From assembly GCA_017882335.1 (NCBI GenBank), contig JADGPR010000005.1, forward strand, positions 1-64,000: a DNA stretch of 64,000 nt. The letters are read 5' to 3'. Positions 14,803 to 32,324 of this stretch are shown in pieces. A program made the position numbers and the translations under genes. A model generated the notes under the pieces. That model searched no databases. It worked only from the letters and a program-made list of their open reading frames with translations, and had not been told where the DNA came from. Source of the DNA: Bacteroidales bacterium (GTDB lineage Bacteria; Bacteroidota; Bacteroidia; Bacteroidales; FEN-979). How positions within the stretch are numbered: the stretch's first letter is position 1; every line of letters starts with the position of its first letter.

Positions 14803-16257
14803 TCAATAAGATGTTTTTAATTCAACTCTTCTGTTTTTCGCGCGGCCGGCAGCAGTATTATTGTCGGCAATCGGTCTGGATTCGCCATAACCTATCGCGG
14901 TCAATCGTGATTCCATGATACCCTTTCCCATCAAATAATTTTTTACCGCTTCGGTACGCTTTTGTGACAGGGTGAGGTTGTATTCATCCGTGCCCTGGCT
15001 ATCGGCATGTCCTTCGATAAGTAACTTGGCTGCTTCATACCTTTTGAGTATTCCTACCAGTTCGTCCAGTTGAGCAAGGGATGCTACTTTAAGGATATCC
15101 TTGTTGGTTTCGAAGAAAATTTTACTTGCTATGTTCGTAATCCTTACCAGGTCTTCTTTTGCAATTTCAGGACAACCTTTATTTTCAATTGTTCCCTTGA
15201 TATTCGGACAGAGATCATCAATATCCGCCACGCCATCGCCGTCTGTATCAGGACAACCTTTCAGGCTTTCCGGACCGGCAGCATCCGGACAACGGTCCAT
15301 TTCATTGACGATTCCGTCATTGTCATTATCCATCGGGCATCCATTTGAATTCACCTTGTATCCTGCCTTCGTATCAGGGCAATTATCATCTATGTCAGGA
15401 ACGCCATCGCCATCTGTATCCGGGCATCCTTTGAAATTTGCCGGACCAGCCATATCCGGGCAACGGTCGTCTTTATCTGCAATACCGTCACCATCTTTAT
15501 CGGGGCAACCATTTAATTCCTTGAGACCTGCAATATCAGGACATTTATCCAAATAATCAGGTACGCCATCCTTATCCACATCAAATGGGCATCCGGTTAT
15601 ATCAACGGGAATACCGACAGGTGTGTTGGGACATTTGTCGTTACGGTCAGATACACCGTCATTATCGGCATCTTTTTTCTTGCCAAAATTAAAAGTAACT
15701 CCGACTGTGTGAAGGAGGAAAAAGTCATTTTCTCTTGCCACAACTCCATCCCTTTTATCTGATGTGGAATAAATAAAAGTTTCCTGTAAATTAAGATTAA
15801 CGGTACTACCCAACCTGAAATTTATTCCCCCTCCAAATGAAGGGATTGCCCAATCTATTTTAGATGGACTGATTTCCAGATCTTTATCAAATATCAATAT
15901 GCCACCACCGACAAATAAAAATGGATTTACAACGGCCCGGGATGATAAGAAATTAAACCTGAAATTGAGAAGCGCTGAAGAAAAACCGGTGTTAAAGTAA
16001 TCGCTGTTGCGGTCATACCCCATCGTTCCTTTGGTAATTAGCAGATTTATATCAAAATGTTTTACGATATATCTTGATACAGATAAGCCGCCAAAGCCAT
16101 ACCACGCCTGGTCGAATTTATAGAAGTCTGTACCCAGATCACCTGAATACTGGGTTATACCTCCATGTAAACCGATGTTCCATTTTTTGTCTTCTGTTTG
16201 AGCATATGTGATTAATGTAAATGCAAAGCAAATACATAATAGTAGTAGTTTTTTCAT
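14803..16257 (-). CDS. OmpA family protein with thrombospondin type 3 repeats
   Basis: Signal peptide, beta-barrel N-terminus, repeated DxDGDGVxDxxDxCP motifs, C-terminal OmpA domain IEGHADSQGTDEYNLTLSQKRTEAVKNYL. Confidence 0.93.
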   Translation of the reverse strand: MKKLLLLCICFAFTLITYAQTEDKKWNIGLHGGITQYSGDLGTDFYKFDQAWYGFGGLSVSRYIVKHFDINLLITKGTMGYDRNSDYFNTGFSSALLNFRFNFLSSRAVVNPFLFVGGGILIFDKDLEISPSKIDWAIPSFGGGINFRLGSTVNLNLQETFIYSTSDKRDGVVARENDFFLLHTVGVTFNFGKKKDADNDGVSDRNDKCPNTPVGIPVDITGCPFDVDKDGVPDYLDKCPDIAGLKELNGCPDKDGDGIADKDDRCPDMAGPANFKGCPDTDGDGVPDIDDNCPDTKAGYKVNSNGCPMDNDNDGIVNEMDRCPDAAGPESLKGCPDTDGDGVADIDDLCPNIKGTIENKGCPEIAKEDLVRITNIASKIFFETNKDILKVASLAQLDELVGILKRYEAAKLLIEGHADSQGTDEYNLTLSQKRTEAVKNYLMGKGIMESRLTAIGYGESRPIADNNTAAGRAKNRRVELKTSY

Positions 16258-20043: not shown

Positions 20044-22161
20044 ATGAAAAGAAAATTTTTATTAACAGTTGTTCTCGCCTGTGTGCTCTTGATGTTGCAT
20101 ATAAGCCCACTTAACGCCCAATGGACCCAAACCAATGGACCCAACGGCGGTGAAGTAATTTGTTTAGCCGCAAGCGGCACGAATCTTTATGCCGGGACCA
20201 GGTTCGGTTTATATCTTTCCACCAACAACGGCACGACCTGGACGGCAATTAATTCCGGTCTGGCAAGTACCTATATTCTTTCCATTGCTGTTTCGGGCTC
20301 GAATATCTTCGTCGGAACCTGGGGCTTCGGTGTCTTTCTTTCCACCAACAACGGCACCAGCTGGACAGCGGTTAATTCCGGTCTAAATAATCCCTTTGTT
20401 TACTCCTTAGCGGTTTCAGGCACGAATATCTTCGCCGGGACATCCGCAACAAGCGGCGGCGTCTTTCTTTCCACCAACAACGGCACAAACTGGACGCTCA
20501 CCAACCTGGTCGATGTGAATGTTAATACAATAGCTGTCTCGGGTACAAATATCTTCGCCGGAACTCTTTTTCATGGTATCTTTCTTTCCACCAACAACGG
20601 CACAAGCTGGACTGAAGTCAATTCCGGTTTGATATCTATGGATATTTATTCTCTTGCAGTTCTGGGCACGCATATCATCGCCGGTACTCATGGCGACGGA
20701 GTCTTTCTTTCCACCAACAATGGCACAAGCTGGGCGCAGGTCAATTCCGGCCTGACGAATCATAACGTGGAGTCTTTAGCCGTCAGCGGCACGAATCTCT
20801 TTGCGGGAACTCACAGCATGGCAGGAGGCTCCGTCGGCGGTGTCTTTCTTTCCACCAACAACGGCACAAACTGGACAGAGGTCAGTTCCGGCCTGACGAG
20901 CACGAATGTTCCGGCTCTTGCTGTCTTGGGTACAAATCTCTTCGCCGGGACTGAAGGCGGCGGTGTCTTTTTTTCCACCAACAATGGCACAAGCTGGACT
21001 GCAGTCAATTCCGGGTTTCCGAATACCCGGGTTTATGCCTTAGCGGTATCGGGAACAAATCTATTCGCCGGGACTTATGGTGGGGGTGTGTTTCTTTCCA
21101 CCAACAACACAGAATGGGCGGCAATCAATTCCGGCTTGCCGGATCCGAATATTGTTGTTTATGCCTTTGCGGTATCAGGCATACATATCTTCGCCGGGAT
21201 TTATGACAAGGGCGTTTATCGTTCCACCGATAACGGTACAACTTGGGATTCACTCAATACCGGCTTAACGAACAAATACATCCAATGTCTTGCGATCTCG
21301 GACACGAATCTCTTCGTCGGGACTTTTTCAGGTGGCATCTTTCGTTCCTCCATCAACGGAACAAGCTGGACAAAGGTCAGTTCCGGCTTGCCCGACTGGG
21401 CATTTGTTAATGCCATTGCGGTTTCTGGCACAAATCTCTTTGCGGGAACTTCCTACGACGGCGTTTTTCTTTCCACAGATAACGGCACAAACTGGACGGC
21501 GGTCAATTCCGGCTTGACAAATACTGATGTTAATTCCCTTGCGGTTTTGGGCACCAATCTCTTTGCCGGGACTTCTTATGGAGGTGTCTTTCTTTCCACC
21601 GACAATGGCACAAACTGGACGGAGGTCAATAATGGCCTGATAGGAATGAATCTTGTTGTTCTTTCCTTTGCAGTCTCGGGTACGAATCTCTTCGCCGGGA
21701 CTGAAGACGGGGTCCTTCTTTCCACCAATAACGGCACAAACTGGACGGAGGTCAGTTCCGGCTTGACCAATACGCGTATTATTGCCCTTGCGGTTTCGGG
21801 CACGAATCTCTTCGCCGGAACATGGGGCAGCGGCACATGGAGTCGACCGTTGTCGGAGATAATTACCTCCATACACAACACTTCCAGCGAACTACCAAGC
21901 GAGTTTCTCCTTCGGCAAAACTACCCTAATCCGTTTAATCCGACAACAACAATAAAGTTTCAAATTACAATTTCAAAGTTTGTTAAGTTATCAGTCTTTG
22001 ATATGCTTGGACATGAAGTTGCAACACTTATGAATGATCAACTAAAACCCGGAATGTATGAAGTGGAGTGGGACGGGACAGGTTGTTCGAGCGGGACTTA
22101 TTATTATAAATTATTTGCAGGGGACTATGTTGAGACAAAGAAGATGATTTTGATGAAATAA
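20044..22161 (+). CDS. beta-propeller (BNR/sortilin-like) repeat protein with T9SS sorting domain
   Basis: Signal peptide; about 13 repeats of FLSTNNGTxWTxVNSGL...LAVSGTNLFAGT; C-terminal LRQNYPNPFNPTTTIKFQI...GTYYYKLFAGDYVETKKMILMK. Confidence 0.92.
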   Translation: MKRKFLLTVVLACVLLMLHISPLNAQWTQTNGPNGGEVICLAASGTNLYAGTRFGLYLSTNNGTTWTAINSGLASTYILSIAVSGSNIFVGTWGFGVFLSTNNGTSWTAVNSGLNNPFVYSLAVSGTNIFAGTSATSGGVFLSTNNGTNWTLTNLVDVNVNTIAVSGTNIFAGTLFHGIFLSTNNGTSWTEVNSGLISMDIYSLAVLGTHIIAGTHGDGVFLSTNNGTSWAQVNSGLTNHNVESLAVSGTNLFAGTHSMAGGSVGGVFLSTNNGTNWTEVSSGLTSTNVPALAVLGTNLFAGTEGGGVFFSTNNGTSWTAVNSGFPNTRVYALAVSGTNLFAGTYGGGVFLSTNNTEWAAINSGLPDPNIVVYAFAVSGIHIFAGIYDKGVYRSTDNGTTWDSLNTGLTNKYIQCLAISDTNLFVGTFSGGIFRSSINGTSWTKVSSGLPDWAFVNAIAVSGTNLFAGTSYDGVFLSTDNGTNWTAVNSGLTNTDVNSLAVLGTNLFAGTSYGGVFLSTDNGTNWTEVNNGLIGMNLVVLSFAVSGTNLFAGTEDGVLLSTNNGTNWTEVSSGLTNTRIIALAVSGTNLFAGTWGSGTWSRPLSEIITSIHNTSSELPSEFLLRQNYPNPFNPTTTIKFQITISKFVKLSVFDMLGHEVATLMNDQLKPGMYEVEWDGTGCSSGTYYYKLFAGDYVETKKMILMK

Positions 22162-22533: not shown

Positions 22534-22848
22534 ATGAAAAAGATAATGTTTTGTCTGATTGTTTGCTCCGCCCTGATGGGTGCTTGCAGTAAAAGTTCCA
22601 CCAGCCCAAATTTTATTCCTGATTGTAGTGGCGCTATAAAATCTTTTAGCAGGGATGTTTCACCTGTATTCCAAAGTGTTTGTGCAGGTTGCCACACGAA
22701 TTTTTCAAACTATTCACAAATATCAGCAGATAAATCTGCTATCAGAAGTAAAATTGTCGATGGAAGCATGCCGCAGCAAGGCTCTTTGTCGACAGCACAG
22801 AAGAATAATGTTATTTGCTGGATTGATAATGGCGCCCCGAATAATTAA
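22534..22848 (+). CDS. small lipoprotein with a c-type cytochrome motif
   Basis: Lipobox ALMGAC; VFQSVCAGCH; start at MKKIMFCLIVC. Confidence 0.75.
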   Translation: MKKIMFCLIVCSALMGACSKSSTSPNFIPDCSGAIKSFSRDVSPVFQSVCAGCHTNFSNYSQISADKSAIRSKIVDGSMPQQGSLSTAQKNNVICWIDNGAPNN

Positions 22849-23393
22849 TCATCAAAATCTGGTATTGAAATCTTATGCCTGCACGGCATGCAGAGGTGCT
22901 GTTCTTTCTGATCGATGTCTTCAACATAATTGCTGGAGTGCATTACACATGATGGGTTGATGCAGTGCACTAGTCCGAAAGTGTGACCCAGCTCATGGAT
23001 CACCTCCTTGGTAAACCTTTCAAGCAGCAGTTTGTCATCGGGCTCAATGCCGTAACGTTCATTGCTTAAGCGGTAGAGGGAGGCAATGCCGGTGCGCCCA
23101 TTCAACGCGGCCTGCCCGAAAATGTAGGTAAGGATGGGAATAAACAGATCGACGCTGAACAATCCCAGGGTTTTGGCCGCGTCGGAGGAGAACTCTGCAT
23201 CCACCTGTTTCAGCAGTCTGTTCCCATTATATTGCCTGCGTGCGGGATCATAAAACTCACTCAGGTCGAGGCGACCTTCCCTGAATATTACCGGCAATAG
23301 AAACTGATGCTTTACCTCCTCAGCAATCACCTCAAGAATATCTTTCCTGAAATAGCCGAAAGAGATTAAAGTGATTTGTTGCTGAATCATCAA
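22845..23393 (-). CDS. archaemetzincin family zinc metalloprotease
   Basis: EVIHELGHTFGLVHCINPSCVMHSSNYVEDIDQKEQHLCMPC matches the archaemetzincin zinc-binding and Cys-rich motif. Confidence 0.92.
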   Translation of the reverse strand: MMIQQQITLISFGYFRKDILEVIAEEVKHQFLLPVIFREGRLDLSEFYDPARRQYNGNRLLKQVDAEFSSDAAKTLGLFSVDLFIPILTYIFGQAALNGRTGIASLYRLSNERYGIEPDDKLLLERFTKEVIHELGHTFGLVHCINPSCVMHSSNYVEDIDQKEQHLCMPCRHKISIPDFDD

Positions 23394-23404: not shown

Positions 23405-24751
23405 TTATTTGTCCTCCGCAGACTTCAGTTCGTATTTCCTGATCTTGTTATAGAGGGTCACGCGGTCGACTTTCAATGCCTTGGCCGATCGGGTGATGTT
23501 CCAGTCGTATTTGGTGAGGATCTGGAAAATGTGGTTCTTTTCATGGTCGTCGAGACTTTCGGCGGAACTGTCGATGAGGTTCTTCTCCAGCGGAAGGTCC
23601 CGGACCTGGATTTTTTTGCCGTTGCCGATCACGATGGCCCGTTCAACCATGTTTTCGAGCTCTCGCACATTGCCGGGAAAGCTGAACTCCTCGAGCCGCC
23701 GCAGGGCCGCGGAATCAATCTTTATGGGTGGCTTGTTCATTGAGGTGCAGTACTTTTTGATGAAGTACTCCACTAGCAGGGGGATATCCCCCACCCTTTC
23801 ACGAAGGGGCGGTATGTGGATATTTACCACGTTCAACCGGTAAAAGAGATCTTCGCGGAAGGTTCCTTTCTCCACCATGTTTTTCAGGTCCTTGTTGGTG
23901 GCACAGATCACCCTGAAATCGGAGGTGATCTCCTTGTTCCCGCCTACGCGTACAAACCTCTTGGTCTCCAGTACCCGCAGCAGTTCAATCTGCATTTTTG
24001 TGGAGATGGTGGCAATTTCATCGAGAAAGATAGTCCCACTGTCAGCCATTTCAAACCGTCCTTTCCGGTTGTACATGGCTCCTGTAAAAGCTCCCTTTTC
24101 ATGCCCGAAAAGTTCGCTCTCCAGGAGGCTTTCAGTGAGGGCCCCGCAGTGGACGCTGACCAGTGGAAAGAATTTGCGTGGAGAGTTGGAGTGTATGGCT
24201 TTTGCAATCAACTCTTTCCCTGTGCCGCTCTCACCGGTGATGATCACTGAGGAGTTCGACTGTGCCACACTTTCCACCTGGCCGAGGACCTTCTGCATCG
24301 CATCACTCTTACCTACCAGGTCTTCTACATTTTCAAGCATCATAACCTTCTCTTTCAGCACCACATTCTCGTCGGCAAGAGTGATCAGTTTGGCTGCATT
24401 CCGGATGAGGTGTGACAGGTCGTCGGGATCAAAGGGTTTGGTCACATAGTCAAAGGCGCCGTCTTTCAGGGCCTGTACAGCAGTGTCAACAGTGGCAAAA
24501 GCCGTCATCATGATCACGATCGACTCCTTCCGCATGGCCTTGATCCGCCGGAGCATCTCCATCCCGTCCATGCCGGGCATTTTGATATCGGCAAGGATAA
24601 TGTCAAAGCTTTCGGATTCAAGCATCGATAATGCTACTTTGGCGTTTTCAGCACACTCCACGTGGTACCGGTCTTCGATGAACCAGCTGTAAAGAGAATC
24701 CCTTACGGATTCCTCATCGTCAACGATCAGAATGGAAATTTTTTTTGTCAT
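23405..24751 (-). CDS. sigma54-dependent response regulator (AtoC/NtrC type)
   Basis: REC domain (DIILADIKMPGMDG), AAA+ GESGTGKELIAKAIH, GAFTGA loop, C-terminal Fis-like HTH. Confidence 0.97.
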   Translation of the reverse strand: MTKKISILIVDDEESVRDSLYSWFIEDRYHVECAENAKVALSMLESESFDIILADIKMPGMDGMEMLRRIKAMRKESIVIMMTAFATVDTAVQALKDGAFDYVTKPFDPDDLSHLIRNAAKLITLADENVVLKEKVMMLENVEDLVGKSDAMQKVLGQVESVAQSNSSVIITGESGTGKELIAKAIHSNSPRKFFPLVSVHCGALTESLLESELFGHEKGAFTGAMYNRKGRFEMADSGTIFLDEIATISTKMQIELLRVLETKRFVRVGGNKEITSDFRVICATNKDLKNMVEKGTFREDLFYRLNVVNIHIPPLRERVGDIPLLVEYFIKKYCTSMNKPPIKIDSAALRRLEEFSFPGNVRELENMVERAIVIGNGKKIQVRDLPLEKNLIDSSAESLDDHEKNHIFQILTKYDWNITRSAKALKVDRVTLYNKIRKYELKSAEDK

Positions 24752-24754
24752 GGT

Positions 24755-26437
24755 CTATTCTTCTTTATTTCGGATCACGGGCAGGGTGATCGAAATGGTT
24801 GTTCCTTTTCCCGGAGCCGATTTCACATCTACTTTCCCCTTGTGGCTCTGAATGATTCCGTGTACGATCGCCAGACCCAGTCCAATGCCACTGGTACTCT
24901 GCTTCGTCGAAAAGAAGGGTTCGAAAATATGCGGGATGTCTTCTTCTGCAATCCCCACTCCGTTGTCTGAGATTTCCATCACCAGGCTGTCGGGGTCATT
25001 GTTCCTGGTCCGGATGCTGATTTCTCCGTTTTCCTCAACTGCTTCAGAAGCATTCACCAGGAGGGCGATACAGGCCTGTTTGATCTGGTTCGGACTGCAG
25101 AAGATCAGATCCTGTGTTGCACTGAAATCCGTCAGGAAGTTTATGTTTGCGATTTTCATTGGATGGGTCATCAGGTCGTAGGTCTTCCGCAGGATCTCAT
25201 GGAGATTCTTTGCTTCAAAATCCTTCTGGTCTTTTTTCGAGAAATCAAGCAACCCTTTCACGATATCGCCGCATCGTTTTGTCTCGTTCTCAATATGCCT
25301 GAGGTACTTCAACATTGACTCCTTTTTAGTGGGATCCAACTCAAGGTTGTGTAATTGCTTGGATACAAGTTTTGTATAAACCAGGATCCCCGACAGAGGA
25401 TTGTTGATCTCGTGAGCCACCGAAAGCGACAGTTTGCCAAGTGAAGCGATCCGCTCGATATGGATCAGTTCATTCTGTGCTGCACCCAGCTCTTCCGACT
25501 TTTTCAGCACTTTGTACTCAAGCTGCTGCGACCAGTTCTGAAGTTCGTTGTTGGCTGCCTCCAGGTTGTCGAGCATGTTATTGAAGGCCTGTGAAACCAC
25601 CTTCATGTCCTCCAGCTGATTGGGCTTTATCTCCAGGCGGGTGCTCTTGTCGCCATTGGCAACGGCAATGCTGGCTTTTACCAGTTCATTCAATGGTTTT
25701 TTGATCCGTTTTCGTGTGAAGAAAAAGAGAAAACCAACCAGGAAGAGGGTGGTTACAATCGCCAAAAGGAAAAACTCCGTTGAGGATTTCGATTCTGCAG
25801 CATCCAGTTCTGCCAGGGGGATCTTGATGATCAGCGATCCGAGGACCTGTTCGCTTGCTTTATGAGCATGACAGGAGCTTTCGTAGCAGGATTTATCGTT
25901 GCGGATGGGTAACTGGATTAACAGGTGTCGGCTGCTACTGTCATTTTGATTCATTTTGCAGTCGCTAGAGGCGCTGATGATCTTATAATGCTTCCCTTGG
26001 CCCGGGAAAATTGATTTAAGATCATTGTGACAGCTGATGCAGTTGGGGTTGCTATGAAAGTTGTTGGTATCGGAAGGTATGGATGTATAGACCAAATGGT
26101 CCTGGATATCGTACATGTTCACCTCGTCGATCCCGGGCATAGTATTGATGATGTCGAGCGTGTTCTGCAGTGTGCTTTTATCGTTCTCAAGCATCGAATG
26201 ATAAAGGGATCCCTCAACAATGGAACCGATGTTATTGCCATTCTGCCGGATTACCGCATTCAGGTATTCCTCATTGACGGATCGGAAGATGAGGCTGAAG
26301 GAAACGAAGAGAAAGAGGGAGGAGGCCAGGATGACAAAAACCACGCGGCTATATATTGAGGAACGGAATTTCAGATACTTCCTGAAAATGGACTTGCCTG
26401 TGATATTGTTGTTCTTTAGATTACTGAAGAAAATCAT
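24755..26437 (-). CDS. periplasmic heme-motif sensor histidine kinase
   Basis: Two TM helices around a sensor region with NCISCH and CYESSCHAH; HAMP; HisKA (SVAHEINNPLSGILVY); HATPase. Confidence 0.9.
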   Translation of the reverse strand: MIFFSNLKNNNITGKSIFRKYLKFRSSIYSRVVFVILASSLFLFVSFSLIFRSVNEEYLNAVIRQNGNNIGSIVEGSLYHSMLENDKSTLQNTLDIINTMPGIDEVNMYDIQDHLVYTSIPSDTNNFHSNPNCISCHNDLKSIFPGQGKHYKIISASSDCKMNQNDSSSRHLLIQLPIRNDKSCYESSCHAHKASEQVLGSLIIKIPLAELDAAESKSSTEFFLLAIVTTLFLVGFLFFFTRKRIKKPLNELVKASIAVANGDKSTRLEIKPNQLEDMKVVSQAFNNMLDNLEAANNELQNWSQQLEYKVLKKSEELGAAQNELIHIERIASLGKLSLSVAHEINNPLSGILVYTKLVSKQLHNLELDPTKKESMLKYLRHIENETKRCGDIVKGLLDFSKKDQKDFEAKNLHEILRKTYDLMTHPMKIANINFLTDFSATQDLIFCSPNQIKQACIALLVNASEAVEENGEISIRTRNNDPDSLVMEISDNGVGIAEEDIPHIFEPFFSTKQSTSGIGLGLAIVHGIIQSHKGKVDVKSAPGKGTTISITLPVIRNKEE

Positions 26438-26561: not shown

Positions 26562-27275
26562 TCAAGGATTCATGAACTCCTTCTGGAAATCATTCCACAC
26601 TTCACCTGGCAGTTCCGACAGGAGGTTATCGCGCAGTTCGCCGCCATCCTGCAAAGCAAAAATGGTGGTTTCGGGATCGTATTTCGGCATCGTCACCGCC
26701 AGGAAATCCCTGAATCGCTGCAGTTCTTTTTTCGACCATTCGGTGGCTGATTCGGCCAGGTAGTAGGAGTTGGTTTCTCCTTTCCAGTTGTTCGGTTTTA
26801 TTTTATAGAGCCAGCCTGTTCCGTAAGGATCCTCATTCAGCTTGCCGGGATCTTCGGTTAGCAAAAGATTGGTTTCTTCTACCCTCCCGGAGATGGGTGA
26901 ATATATCTTCAGCATTTTTCCGTCATGATAAAGCTCTGTCATCACCTCACCTTTGATGATCGAATCACCTGGTGTTTTCATGTAGTTTAGTCTGACATTG
27001 CCAGTAAAATGGAGCAGGAGATCATCCAGCCCCAAATTGGCGATACCTGATTTGGACAAATGGGCCCACGTATGATTTTTGCAGTAGAAAACTCCTTGGG
27101 GAATTTTCAGAATGCTACTCGTAAGGACACCCAAGGCCTTGCTGAACTGCCGTTTTATTATCACCTTCCTGTTCAGGATGATGGAGAAAGGGATAAGCAG
27201 GGCCAGAAATGAAATAATGATAAGGTATTCCATTCCTTTCGTCTCAAAAATGTTGTAATAACTGAATCCGTCCAT
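26562..27275 (-). CDS. membrane-anchored GcvH-like domain protein with conserved C-terminal extension
   Basis: One N-terminal TM; CKNHTWAHLSKSGIANLGLDDLLLHFTG...IYSPISGRVEETN...NEDPYGTGWLYKIKP; C-terminal ALQDGGELRDNLLSELPGEVWNDFQKEFM; alternative start 27299. Confidence 0.75.
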   Translation of the reverse strand: MDGFSYYNIFETKGMEYLIIISFLALLIPFSIILNRKVIIKRQFSKALGVLTSSILKIPQGVFYCKNHTWAHLSKSGIANLGLDDLLLHFTGNVRLNYMKTPGDSIIKGEVMTELYHDGKMLKIYSPISGRVEETNLLLTEDPGKLNEDPYGTGWLYKIKPNNWKGETNSYYLAESATEWSKKELQRFRDFLAVTMPKYDPETTIFALQDGGELRDNLLSELPGEVWNDFQKEFMNP

Positions 27276-27323
27276 GGCTCTATAATTAAGAATTAACAAT
27301 AATAAATTTTTTTATTTCTTGAT

Positions 27324-28547
27324 TTAATGTTTGCCGGCCCAGGAGGGAGAGTCCCGCAACACGGGCATACGGTTGATGACCCACCTGAAAATCCATATTT
27401 CTGTGAATAGAACAGTAAGTGTTACCACTACCTCCATCCAGGAGGGAATATAGTGGATTGCTGCATCCCACCGGAAGCCGATCACTGTGACGTTCAGCCT
27501 GTTCAGGATGATCCCCAGGATGGTCAGGATGGCGGCCACCCGGACAAGCATGATGTTATTCCGCCTATAGCTGAAATAAAAGAGCATCATGGGAAGGAGG
27601 ACAAAGCCAAACATTTCCAGGAGGTACCAATAACCCATCGGAGTGTTGAGCAGGTCCCAGTGACGGTTATGAATAAAAACGAGTACCTGAAGGAAAAAGT
27701 AAGCAAACATCGTCCCGGCACAAATCTTGGATAACCCAAGGATGATACCGGTCCGGGCTTTGTGATCTTTCTCGCTGATTTGTTTCTGAAAGACGTTATG
27801 GCTGATAGATCCTTCGAAGATGACCATCGAGAGGCCGGCAAAGATGCTGGAGACAAAGAACATGATGGGAATGAATTCAGAGTACCAGAGCGGGTGTATC
27901 TTCTCTTTGGCCATCAGGTAAAGGGCACCGAGCCCCGACTGGTGCAGGGTGGAGAGGGTGATGCCGAAGATGACAGCAGCGATGGTCATACCAGATAGTA
28001 TTTTATGAATACGTTTTGCCCCCAGCCATTCTGCAATGGCAGGCGAGAATTCGATCAGTTGGGCGATCATATAGAGCAGGAAATGCCATGCCACCAGGAA
28101 GAGGACAGAGTTCACTCCGAAGTTGTTCCCGATAATAGGGTTGATCACGTTCCAGGGGCGGCCAAGGTCAAGAAGCAGGGCCCCGGCATAGAAAACATAA
28201 GCCAGGAATCCATTGAGTACGGTTACCCTCACGATGGATTTGTATTTCTTCATGTTCAGAATATACACCATGAAGGTAAGCACATAGGCACCACCGGCAA
28301 AGGCCACGCCGGTTACCACGTCGAAGCCGATCCACAGTCCCCAGGGAACCTCCTGGGTGAGGTTGGTCACAGACCCCAGCCCCTTCCAGAAACGGATGAC
28401 GATCAGCGTCAGCCCCAGCAGGATGATGGGAACCGAGATGACGTTAAACGGAGTAAATATTTTCCCTTTGGGTTTAAGTTCACTCCACAGAAACTTCCAG
28501 ATGGGCTTGCCATCGTTATCGATTGCAATAGGATTGTTTTCGCTCAT
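27324..28547 (-). CDS. NrfD/HybB family membrane quinone-interacting subunit
   Basis: Multi-TM; STLHQSGLGALYLMAKEKIHPLWYS HybB-like motif; start at MSENNPIA (28547), not ORF start 28736. Confidence 0.9.
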   Translation of the reverse strand: MSENNPIAIDNDGKPIWKFLWSELKPKGKIFTPFNVISVPIILLGLTLIVIRFWKGLGSVTNLTQEVPWGLWIGFDVVTGVAFAGGAYVLTFMVYILNMKKYKSIVRVTVLNGFLAYVFYAGALLLDLGRPWNVINPIIGNNFGVNSVLFLVAWHFLLYMIAQLIEFSPAIAEWLGAKRIHKILSGMTIAAVIFGITLSTLHQSGLGALYLMAKEKIHPLWYSEFIPIMFFVSSIFAGLSMVIFEGSISHNVFQKQISEKDHKARTGIILGLSKICAGTMFAYFFLQVLVFIHNRHWDLLNTPMGYWYLLEMFGFVLLPMMLFYFSYRRNNIMLVRVAAILTILGIILNRLNVTVIGFRWDAAIHYIPSWMEVVVTLTVLFTEIWIFRWVINRMPVLRDSPSWAGKH

Positions 28548-28549
28548 GG

Positions 28550-29404
28550 TTATTCCTCCGGGGTTTGGTTGTCTTTTTTCGTTGCCTGATGAATGCCTAA
28601 CAGGAGCGCCGGAAACAGTACAAATATAGAAGGCACGCTGTAGAGAAATCCTTTGGTTAATGCAGGATAGGAAGCTTTCTGGATTTCTTTCATGCCGAGT
28701 TCCTTGAAGGGTACAGGTGAGAGATACATCCAGCAAGTACCACCGGCTTCATGTTCGCCATACAGGTAATCTACATAAAGTTTGGGGTTTTCTACAATCC
28801 TTTTCCGGGCTTCTTTGATCAGTTGGCGGCGAGTACCGTAGAAGAGGGCGTCATTCGGACAATTGGCAACACAGGCAGGAATTTCACCTGTTTTGAGCCG
28901 GTTATAACACATGTCGCATTTCTGGATCTTCGGGTTGGAACTGTGATATTCGAACTTCGGTATGTCAAAGGGACAGGAGATCATGCAATAGCGGCATCCC
29001 ATACATTTTTCACCCCGCCAGATCACTGGCCCGGCTTTGGTTTTGTGCATGGCCTGGGTGAGACAAGCCGAAGCACAGGCAGGTTCGGAGCAATGCATGC
29101 ACTGCATTTTAATGAAGACTGTGCCTTTGGATGTCTTATACTCATTAACCACCGTACGTTTGGTTTCACTTGTGTGTCGTATCGGGGGAATGTCTTTTGC
29201 CGGGCCTGGCAGGGGAAGGCCGTTGGCCTCGGCGCAGTCGTATTCACAGCCACGGCATCCTTTACATCTGGCGGAGTCGTACAATACGCCCCTGAAATCT
29301 ATGTCGCCATTACCTCCGGGCGCCGCTTTCATTTCGCGGCCGATGACCAGGGCAGCCCCGGTTAACCCCAGGACCTTAAAAAATCCACGTCGGTTTATGC
29401 TCAT
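28550..29404 (-). CDS. HybA-like 4Fe-4S ferredoxin-type protein
   Basis: Tat-like N-terminus RRGFFKVLG; Cys clusters CKGCRGCEYDC, CMHCSEPACASAC, CMGCRYCMISC, CDMC...CVANC; C-terminal TM. Confidence 0.92.
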   Translation of the reverse strand: MSINRRGFFKVLGLTGAALVIGREMKAAPGGNGDIDFRGVLYDSARCKGCRGCEYDCAEANGLPLPGPAKDIPPIRHTSETKRTVVNEYKTSKGTVFIKMQCMHCSEPACASACLTQAMHKTKAGPVIWRGEKCMGCRYCMISCPFDIPKFEYHSSNPKIQKCDMCYNRLKTGEIPACVANCPNDALFYGTRRQLIKEARKRIVENPKLYVDYLYGEHEAGGTCWMYLSPVPFKELGMKEIQKASYPALTKGFLYSVPSIFVLFPALLLGIHQATKKDNQTPEE

Positions 29405-29492
29405 ACTATCTTTCTTTTAGTGTTGTGTACTACTTTTATTTTCTCGATGAAAAAAGTATATTCTATTATTATTTTTCTAAGTGAACTTATTT

Positions 29493-31169
29493 TCATTTGG
29501 ATGTGTCCATAAACTTTACCTGGAAATCTTCCCAAACCTCGGGTCCGAAACCAGCAAGGATATTATCCTTCAGGTCCCCTCCATCCTGCAGCACTATGGG
29601 TGCATATCCGGCGGTAATCACTGAAGTGGCAAAGAAATCCTTCAGGCGGATGAACTCTTGTTTCAACCAATCGTTGTATTTCTCGGCCATAAAGAGGAAC
29701 TGGGTTTCGCGCAGCCAGTTTGAAGGTTCGATTGTATAGACCCACCCATCGGCAAACGGAGCGGTATTGAGCACAGAGGACCGGCTGCTGAGGAGACCAT
29801 TCTGTGTGCGGATGGTTCCCGAGACCGGAGAACAGATGTTCAGTTGCTTGCCGCTCTGGACGATTGTGAGGATCACCCCTCCCTTTTGTACCTGCTCACC
29901 GGGGTTTTTCATCTTAACACGCGTTAATGACCCGGTGATATGCTGCAGAAAATCATCGATCCCCACGCGTACCATCCCGTTCTGTTCCATGAAGGCCCAG
30001 GTGTGTGATTTGTCGAACCAGAAACCTTTCGGAACGTTGACAGCAGTTTCGCCAAAAGCGTTTATTCCGGAAGAAACCCCTTTCCCGATGGCCGGCTTTC
30101 TGTTCCTCCGGTAGCCGATCACCCAGGTGATGATTGATCCTGCCAGAATGATGATGACCAGGATGATCATCACGGTTTGCATTGGATGACTGCTTTCGGG
30201 GACACTAGCCAGGGTGATTTTGTTATCCAGCAAGACTGATTTTGCCTTCCGTTCACTGGACCCGAGATCGAAATAACCATTCGGGTTGAGATACTGCTGT
30301 CCGCCGGCAAGCACCCATTTCAGGAAAGCCACCTGGTTTTCATTTTCAGGTTTAACAGAGGCGATAGTATAGATGTTGCGGGTCAGTGCGCCTGGGTATT
30401 TGCCAAGCCATACCCCGCGCAGGAAATCCTGCATACTGCCATAAATATTTTCGAAATTGTCGAGTTCCCCGTTCCTGTTTTTATCGATCGGCAACAGGCC
30501 TATGCCGACGACCAGTCCCTGTTTGTTCAGATCCAGCACATCAGTGAGCCTGCAAAAACCAAGTGCGTTAGGATCTTTCGCGATGGCCGAGGCCAGTTCA
30601 GTCCCGCTGGATATCACAGTCGCGTTCAATGCCCCGACATCCGCATTGAGGAATTTTGCTACTTTCTGCCGGAGAGATTCTTCGTTGAAGAGGTAGCAGT
30701 GAACCGGGGTAGTCTGCCCACTGCCAAGGAGGGTTCCCCATTGCTGTTTGCCGGGATCGCTCATCAGCATGGCTAGCCGTTGCGGATTAATACCCTTCAA
30801 GTTAATTTCACCAATCAGGGGGTTTTTTGTGTTAAACACCAGTACAATAGCATCGCGCCCCACCACCATCTTCCACAGATTGTCGCCCGGGAGTGCAGTA
30901 TAATATTCATCTGTAAGAAAGGTGAGATTCGCACCGGATTTTAAAATATCCGCCTTGTTTTCCCCGGAATATCTGATCAGGTTGATCATCGGGTCAGGAT
31001 GTAGTTTCTGGTATTCAACCACCCACTTTGCAGTTAGATCATATAGTTCGGACGTGGTGACCACAGTAACGATATTCGGGGATTTGGTATTATCTCCAAT
31101 GGCCATTGTGTTCTGAATATTGAAGCACAGGATGGCGATGAGGATGAATAAAAAAATCTTGGTTTTCAT
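29493..31169 (-). CDS. PstS-like substrate-binding domain fused to TM helix and GcvH-like domain
   Basis: Signal peptide; PBP-like region (SGENKADILKSG, GRDAIVLVFNTKNP, GFCRLTDVLD); TM; FDKSHTWAFMEQNGMVRVGIDDFLQHITG...ICSPVSGTI; C-terminal VLQDGGDLKDNILAGFGPEVWEDFQVKFMD. Confidence 0.85.
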   Translation of the reverse strand: MKTKIFLFILIAILCFNIQNTMAIGDNTKSPNIVTVVTTSELYDLTAKWVVEYQKLHPDPMINLIRYSGENKADILKSGANLTFLTDEYYTALPGDNLWKMVVGRDAIVLVFNTKNPLIGEINLKGINPQRLAMLMSDPGKQQWGTLLGSGQTTPVHCYLFNEESLRQKVAKFLNADVGALNATVISSGTELASAIAKDPNALGFCRLTDVLDLNKQGLVVGIGLLPIDKNRNGELDNFENIYGSMQDFLRGVWLGKYPGALTRNIYTIASVKPENENQVAFLKWVLAGGQQYLNPNGYFDLGSSERKAKSVLLDNKITLASVPESSHPMQTVMIILVIIILAGSIITWVIGYRRNRKPAIGKGVSSGINAFGETAVNVPKGFWFDKSHTWAFMEQNGMVRVGIDDFLQHITGSLTRVKMKNPGEQVQKGGVILTIVQSGKQLNICSPVSGTIRTQNGLLSSRSSVLNTAPFADGWVYTIEPSNWLRETQFLFMAEKYNDWLKQEFIRLKDFFATSVITAGYAPIVLQDGGDLKDNILAGFGPEVWEDFQVKFMDTSK

Positions 31170-31329: not shown

Positions 31330-31346
31330 TGTTGAATAAATCAACA
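31330..31346. promoter_or_regulatory. palindromic site 1, candidate enhancer (UAS)
   Basis: TGTTGA-ATAAA-TCAACA, perfect 6-N5-6 palindrome. Confidence 0.6.
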
Positions 31347-31399: not shown

Positions 31400-31416
31400 T
31401 GTTGAAATATTCAACG
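31400..31416. promoter_or_regulatory. palindromic site 2, candidate enhancer (UAS)
   Basis: TGTTGA-AATAT-TCAACG, same architecture with one outer mismatch. Confidence 0.55.
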
Positions 31417-31418
31417 GG

Positions 31419-31435
31419 TGTTGAATAAATCAACA
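31419..31435. promoter_or_regulatory. palindromic site 3, candidate enhancer (UAS)
   Basis: TGTTGA-ATAAA-TCAACA, identical to site 1. Confidence 0.6.
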
Positions 31436-31604: not shown

Positions 31605-32324
31605 ATGAAAAATAAAACACAAGTTTGGATTTACTCATTAGCTATTATGGAAGTGTTATTGCTGCTTACAAACAGCTGTAGCAAGTCGGGTGACAACAGC
31701 AACCCGACTCCACCACCCATAACAGTAACCGAAACAGTAACCGATATTGACGGCAATGTTTATCACCTGATAACAATTGGTACACAGGTATGGCTGGTTG
31801 AGAACCTGAAAACTACCAGATACAACGATGGGACGCCAATACCCCTGGTAACAGATAGTGCAGCATGGAGTAATTCGACCACTCCCGGATATTGTTGGTA
31901 TAATAATGATGTTGCTAACAAAAGTACTTATGGGGCTTTGTACAACTGGTTTACAGTAAACACCGGAATACTTGCCCCTACCGGTTGTCACGTACCCACC
32001 GATGCCGAATGGACAACGCTGACTACTTATCTGGGAGGCGAAAGTATTGCCGGCGGCAAACTAAAAGAAACAGGTTCAACCCATTGGCGAAGTCCTAATG
32101 CAGGAGCTACAAATGAAAGCGGTTTTACAGCCCTTCCGGGTAGCCACCGTGACATCAATGGTGCATTCAGCGCCATTGGCGACGATGGTTATTGGTGGTC
32201 AGTTACGGAGTACGGCAGTACTGGTAAGGTCTGGTACCGGAATATGAATTACAATTACGCCGGTGTAGTCAGGGTAAGCAACAATAAGATTAATGGTCAT
32301 TCAGTTCGTTGCGTCAAGGATTAA
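31605..32324 (+). CDS. FISUMP domain lipoprotein
   Basis: Lipobox-like TNSCSKSG; TDIDGNVYHLITIGTQVWLVENLKTTRYNDG ... WWSVTEYGSTGKVWYRNMNYN. Confidence 0.9.
   Translation: MKNKTQVWIYSLAIMEVLLLLTNSCSKSGDNSNPTPPPITVTETVTDIDGNVYHLITIGTQVWLVENLKTTRYNDGTPIPLVTDSAAWSNSTTPGYCWYNNDVANKSTYGALYNWFTVNTGILAPTGCHVPTDAEWTTLTTYLGGESIAGGKLKETGSTHWRSPNAGATNESGFTALPGSHRDINGAFSAIGDDGYWWSVTEYGSTGKVWYRNMNYNYAGVVRVSNNKINGHSVRCVKD

Follow-up and report, generated by a model that had tools for sequence, protein, structure and literature searches.

What does a protein with the fold of GcvH, the lipoate carrier of glycine cleavage, do when the lipoyl lysine is missing, and why would two such proteins be encoded next to genes for electron transfer and signal transduction? 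We examined this question in a 64,000-nucleotide stretch of DNA (the window; positions 1 to 64,000 of contig JADGPR010000005.1, forward strand) from a Bacteroidales bacterium of the FEN-979 lineage, GenBank assembly GCA_017882335.1. A preliminary description had placed two GcvH-like proteins within positions 26562 to 31169, and both are encoded there, matching Pfam GCV_H far over the cut-off of 22.2 bits (5.5e-20 and 71.9 bits for the longer, fused protein; 1.1e-18 and 67.7 bits for the short one). That span proved to be only part of a larger operon, and genes for HmcB and HmcC relatives (together HmcBC) lie between the two. The seven genes run in the order PstS-like/transmembrane/GcvH fusion, HmcB-like ferredoxin, HmcC/NrfD protein, transmembrane-GcvH protein, c-heme histidine kinase, NtrC-type regulator, and archaemetzincin. 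The two GcvH-like proteins are paralogues (38% identity over 226 amino acids, E 9e-52), with an alignment that covers the transmembrane helix, the GcvH domain, and a C-terminal extension. The GcvH fold is present in both: AlphaFold models (pLDDT of 89.9 for the short protein and 83.5 for the fused protein) matched most GcvH entries at a Foldseek TMt of 0.82 to 0.90 for the short protein, while Foldseek found both PstS-type proteins and GcvH for the fused protein, with a TM of about 0.9 to GcvH crystal structures. The fused protein also had a weak Pfam match to PBP_like_2; its PstS-like periplasmic domain and transmembrane helix were features absent from the preliminary description. For the short gene, a TTG start gives 245 amino acids, and alternative ATG starts are possible at 27275 or 27233.

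We aligned 16 canonical GcvH sequences from the phylum jointly with 66 noncanonical sequences, including both window proteins. The one column that is lysine in all 16 canonical sequences is glycine in both window proteins, with lysine at the following (+1) position, which bears out the earlier observation of a glycine at the lipoyl-lysine spacing and a lysine displaced by one residue. Glycine likewise fills this column in 32/32 sampled Bacteroidia members, and lysine was found there in 3 of the 34 other relatives. In the tree, all 66 noncanonical sequences cluster away from canonical GcvH, with a node support of only 0.59. One might argue that these are ordinary lipoylated glycine-cleavage proteins whose alignment has been mis-drawn, given their fold and overall sequence similarity, and when the fused protein is compared with GcvH crystal-structure sequences, HMMER does choose a one-residue gap that would pair lysine with lysine. 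The short protein, however, aligns to the same sequences with no gap in the hairpin, placing glycine under the lipoyl lysine and lysine at +1, and the joint alignment removes the ambiguity for the fused protein. Since gapless alignment and equal hairpin length set glycine at the lipoyl column, both proteins carry a membrane anchor, a separate canonical GcvH (the only one in the host genome) is encoded on a different contig, and NCBIfam scores of 58.1 and 55.7 bits do not reach the GcvH equivalog cut-off of 115.85 bits, we regard this explanation as almost certainly wrong.

Could the +1 lysine instead be a shifted site of lipoylation, or of some other acylation, which would make these proteins a new kind of carrier? 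We tallied hairpin residues in 241 distinct relatives, divided into PstS-fused, short Bacteroidia, and non-Bacteroidia groups. At the lipoyl position, all 84 aligned PstS-fused proteins and 81 of the 95 short Bacteroidia proteins have glycine; elsewhere the residue is N, G, D, E, or a similar one. Lysine occupies +1 in 84/84 and 83/95 of the same two groups, as a shifted site would predict, and the host genome does encode a lipoate ligase. Against this, the 12 remaining short paralogues, which belong to the same operon, have R, N, G, or I in place of the lysine, and the lysine is kept in just 9 of the 47 non-Bacteroidia relatives, the other 38 having R, G, N, H, or other residues. The one lipoate ligase lies on a third contig, and a search for an LplA/LipB-like ligase linked to the operon, as the preliminary description had proposed, found none. 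That description had also considered that the lysine might sit exactly at the tip of the lipoyl hairpin; the models place it after a two-residue turn (D126-G127 in the short protein, S439-G440 in the fused protein), as the first residue of the second strand. NGK or DGK reads as a normal tight beta-turn, and the modelled hairpin resembles an [N/D]-G turn rather than a lipoyl hairpin tip. Displaced lysines in lipoyl domains are not known to be modified. We therefore consider a shifted site highly improbable. Of the two alternatives first put forward, alignments and models support the view that both proteins are nonlipoylated structural descendants of GcvH, and the poor retention of the +1 lysine outside Bacteroidia, the turn geometry, and the lack of a linked ligase speak against a shifted modification site. 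Because GK is invariant in the 84 PstS-fused relatives, its lysine probably does have some role.

The C-terminal motif that the two proteins had been said to share is real, and its conservation is family wide. In the membrane-anchored family, a helix with W..E..R..(K/R)DF is followed by DGG and then by a terminal helix with W..F...F(L/M), a segment far above chance level. DGG was found in 74/87 PstS-fused proteins, 72/95 short Bacteroidia proteins, and 40/47 non-Bacteroidia relatives, and the tail W..F...F[LMIF] is kept in 84/87 and 94/95 of the two Bacteroidia groups. The accompanying idea of a domain for paired use did not hold, since the segment belongs to the membrane-anchored family as a whole and occurs at loci with one or three GcvH copies as well. 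It is absent or reduced in members fused to a receiver domain. Each window protein has a single transmembrane helix, with zero or one K/R before it and five K/R after it, on the GcvH side (amino acids 329 to 356 in the fused protein, with zero before and five after). This excess of K/R predicts a cytoplasmic GcvH domain and a periplasmic PstS-like domain. The PstS-like domain has in common with the genome's own PstS, which sits in a cluster that we recognized by eye as pstSCAB-like, a conserved Ca-binding-type loop, D.N.NG..D. Three further segments of the genome's PstS, GAFALYPL, SAGGAGKGM, and TRSDACG, which we take to be phosphate-site segments, have not been kept in 56 fused domains. With the lipoyl lysine and these three segments gone, each half of the fusion resembles a module that formerly carried or bound something and has lost its site.

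To ask how widely this gene order is kept, we used an HmcC alignment to fetch loci from the genome collection. Full seven-gene order was found in 52 of the 80 HmcC-anchored loci, mostly from Bacteroidales, and most of the others were shortened by contig ends. Exceptions included one locus with kinase, regulator, and protease upstream (L132) and two in which the genes are nonadjacent (L159 and L169). Carriers include the cultured environmental bacteria Sunxiuqinia elliptica, Maribellus luteus, and Tangfeifania diversioriginum and numerous Bacteroidales/Prolixibacteraceae metagenome-assembled genomes (MAGs). Other families of the phylum, and other classes too, have the same gene order minus the PstS fusion, and MAGs labelled Acidobacteria, Krumholzibacteriia, and Proteobacteria contain partial related loci. 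A sister arrangement has two receiver-GcvH fusions next to HmcBC and a kinase, and both domains of the fusions score above the Pfam cut-off.

The genes between and beyond the two GcvH paralogues encode a putative electron path and a two-component system (Table 1). The best NCBIfam matches of the HmcB-like and HmcC-like proteins mark them as relatives that score below the respective cut-offs (315 bits against 420, and 4e-121 and 405 bits against 550). Four [4Fe-4S] clusters are expected in the ferredoxin, whose cysteines are conserved at 0.98 to 1.00 in 121 sequences. Among 97 kinase orthologues, CxxCH is present in 97/97 and C184x4CH is invariant. Neither the multiheme cytochrome HmcA nor an HmcF-like cytoplasmic subunit is among the seven genes of the window operon, and Pfam detects no Hdr domain in it. 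In the absence of a multiheme cytochrome, the kinase, as the sole heme protein encoded by the operon, is the only one at hand to accept electrons from HmcB. The archaemetzincin passes the NCBIfam archmetzin cut-off (162.4 bits against 145), and its zinc motif is conserved at 0.99 in 91 sequences, following the M54 definition HEXXHXXGXXHCX4CXM...CXXC (PMC3427221). An archaemetzincin with an intact active site is the constant final gene of this two-component operon.

Table 1. Coordinates of the operon and its upstream elements in the window
Feature	Position	Strand	Basis
Distal dyad TGTTGATTTATTCAACA, candidate upstream activator site	31419..31435		Conserved in orthologous upstream regions
Imperfect dyad CGTTGAATATTTCAACA, adjoining the distal site	31400..31416		Upstream-region dyad analysis
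Proximal dyad TGTTGATTTATTCAACA, 89 bp from the distal copy	31330..31346		Conserved pair spacing
Sigma54-like -24/-12 element AGGCTCAATATTTGAA	31237..31252	-	Enrichment in upstream regions
Fused protein: PstS-like predicted periplasmic domain, transmembrane helix, predicted cytoplasmic GcvH-like domain, C-terminal extension; 558 amino acids	29493..31169	-	Pfam, AlphaFold, Foldseek
Tat-exported ferredoxin, HmcB/HybA-like, 16 conserved Cys	28550..29404	-	NCBIfam HmcB 3.3e-94
HmcC/NrfD-like membrane protein of a quinone-interacting family, start set at MSENN	27324..28547	-	Pfam NrfD 2.2e-14
Short protein: transmembrane helix, predicted cytoplasmic GcvH-like domain, C-terminal extension; 245 amino acids	26562..27299	-	Pfam, AlphaFold, Foldseek
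Membrane histidine kinase whose periplasmic domain has two covalent-heme motifs (C133xxCH, C184x4CH)	24755..26437	-	HAMP, HisKA, HATPase
NtrC-type response regulator (receiver, sigma54 AAA+, Fis-type helix-turn-helix)	23405..24751	-	Profile matches
Archaemetzincin (M54) metalloprotease, intact HEXXHXXGXXHC...CXM...CXXC	22845..23393	-	NCBIfam archmetzin

Sequences upstream of the operon are also conserved. Dyads of the form TGTTGA-N5-TCAACA (at most two mismatches) occur in 81 of 82 orthologous upstream regions compared to 32 of 820 shuffles, and in 79 loci two dyads (at most three mismatches) are spaced 86 to 90 bp apart. Paired dyads were found in 22 of the 43 genomes of the family searched, every one of them beside this operon, and the reversed-pattern control of the pairs returned zero across the 43 genomes. 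In other classes, some pairs lie ~98 to 101 bp apart, roughly one extra helical turn. Allowing one mismatch at most, the host genome has 29 single dyads, compared with 7 matches to the reversed pattern; away from the operon, exact single dyads lie at G000:C76:22943 and G000:C78:10684. A sigma54-like element, GGC-N7-TTG[AC], is present in 51/82 upstream regions versus 7/1640 shuffles, and the host genome has rpoN. The classical sigma54 consensus TGGCAC-N5-TTGC was tried and rejected for Bacteroidia, where it is unenriched (2/83) and the TTGA variant is enriched; a classical TTGC match was found in 4 of 16 loci of other classes. The dyads and the sigma54-like element fit an autoregulated sigma54 operon in which the operon's own regulator would bind the dyads.

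Sequence comparison and structure models establish the loss of the lipoyl lysine, the fold, a predicted topology, the operon linkage, the dyads, a sigma54-like promoter, and the receiver-GcvH fusions. Our reading is that the nonlipoylated GcvH folds may be membrane-anchored cytoplasmic adaptors in a quinone-linked, heme-sensing, self-regulating redox-signalling complex, a proposal to which we give about an even chance of being correct. The HmcC/NrfD protein would exchange electrons with the quinone pool, and these would reach the kinase's periplasmic hemes by way of the HmcB ferredoxin with its four clusters. Through its output, the kinase would phosphorylate the NtrC-type regulator, and this, acting at the tandem dyads together with sigma54, could then switch on its own operon. 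Docked on the cytoplasmic side, the GcvH domains would relay the state of the complex to kinase, regulator, or protease, and the GcvH domain of the fusion might additionally relay that of the periplasmic PstS-like domain. More tentatively, this could represent a new class of transmembrane complex, in which NrfD and ferredoxin feed quinone-pool electrons directly to a heme kinase, retired GcvH domains (in some lineages fused to receivers) act as cytoplasmic signalling modules, and archaemetzincin is one output; this fuller version is possible, but we would not expect it to hold in all its parts.

Several observations weigh against the adaptor proposal. At this locus, two genomes have PstS-GcvH, kinase, regulator, and protease but neither HmcBC nor the second GcvH, and a genome-wide search for HmcC elsewhere in them, run without a positive control, came back empty. 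Signalling may therefore be able to dispense with HmcBC. Furthermore, the -12 element in Bacteroidia is TTGA rather than the classical TTGC, it is only through family analogy and synteny that we connect the dyads with the operon's own regulator, and the invariant GK lysine of the PstS-fused paralogue makes some role, even modification, possible.

According to the strongest rival, the GcvH-like proteins belong to an Hmc-type complex as subunits with a purely structural role, and the kinase and regulator only control expression of that complex, without touching GcvH. In its favour, loci mostly either have both HmcBC and the second GcvH (GcvH2) or lack both, known Hmc complexes too have several membrane subunits, and barrel-sandwich domains occur within NqrA/RnfC (weak Pfam matches). 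It is harder to reconcile with the receiver-GcvH fusions in related loci and with the two loci that retain PstS-GcvH beside kinase, regulator, and protease while missing HmcBC, and although it is a serious contender we doubt it. Those same two genomes could be taken to mean that the operon is mainly a ligand sensor, in which ligand binding by the PstS-like domain would be signalled to the kinase via the transmembrane helix and GcvH, HmcBC being one regulated output. The PstS-like fold and its conserved Ca-binding-type loop agree with this. However, the loss of the three compared segments in 56 fused sequences leaves no ligand that can be named, and the PstS domain is missing from orthologous loci of other classes that otherwise have the same system, so that we find a primary ligand sensor unlikely.

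What emerges is a cofactor-carrier fold that has lost its cofactor site and been reused beside signalling proteins and, in some lineages, fused to them. The operon is conserved through much of one phylum and partly seen outside it, and it is so far undescribed: our literature search found no paper naming both GcvH and NrfD and nothing on this operon. Bacterial archaemetzincins gain a firm genomic context. The operon suggests a route by which the redox state of the quinone pool could be reported to a kinase through direct electron transfer. In such genomes, proteins that automatic annotation calls "glycine cleavage system protein H" may be wrongly named.

Some related or neighbouring proteins deserve separate mention. 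Receiver-GcvH fusions at L050:14038-14841 and 14888-16045, and also in L051 and L052, lie beside HmcBC, a histidine kinase, and multiheme cytochromes. GcvH-related or neighbouring proteins at L043:10084-10833, L050:4558-5274, and L008:2181-3002 share an N-terminal Cys motif, CxWM...YKLC...C..C, and two of them are without a Pfam match. In the window itself, positions 20044-22161 encode a secreted, repeat-rich protein that ends in a type IX-like sorting sequence, and positions 31605-32324 encode a protein with a Fibrobacter-type major paralogous domain sequence, recognized by eye.

The system resembles several known ones in part. With GcvH of glycine cleavage (PF01597, TIGR00527), the window proteins share the fold, the scaffold residues HxW, GxxD, and PYxxGW, and the length of the lipoyl hairpin; they differ in lacking the lipoyl lysine, in their membrane anchor, in the DGG and terminal-helix extension, in gene neighbourhood, and in a sub-equivalog score. 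LbpA, the lipoate-binding proteins of the Hdr-like sulfur-oxidation pathway, have a strictly conserved lysine, mostly two conserved cysteines, and associated ligases (PMC6067878). Like LbpA, the window proteins represent GcvH-like proteins recruited beyond glycine cleavage, beside electron-transfer genes, but they have neither the conserved lysine nor the two cysteines nor associated ligases, and the operon has no Hdr genes. The Hmc complex of sulfate reducers (HmcB NF045715, HmcC NF045714) similarly combines a ferredoxin and an NrfD-family protein with no molybdenum subunit, as does the NrfCD-type pair of Melioribacter roseus (PMC3534657). Unlike Hmc, the window operon scores sub-equivalog, lacks the multiheme cytochrome HmcA, and adds GcvH-like subunits and a two-component system. 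A periplasmic sensor with a covalent c-heme motif recalls the sCache_heme sensors (DUF3365/Tll0287; PMC12889525), and one kinase orthologue scores as sCache_4; the window kinase, however, has two heme motifs rather than one, and DUF3365 is not matched by Pfam. Finally, receiver, sigma54 AAA+ and Fis helix-turn-helix domains, a partner kinase, rpoN in the genome, and upstream dyads are all found here, and the regulator architecture, N5-centred dyads, and -24/-12-like promoter are those of NtrC-family sigma54 two-component systems of the AtoSC/ZraSR type, from which this system differs in that its kinase carries c-type heme motifs and its paired sites were found at its own operon only.

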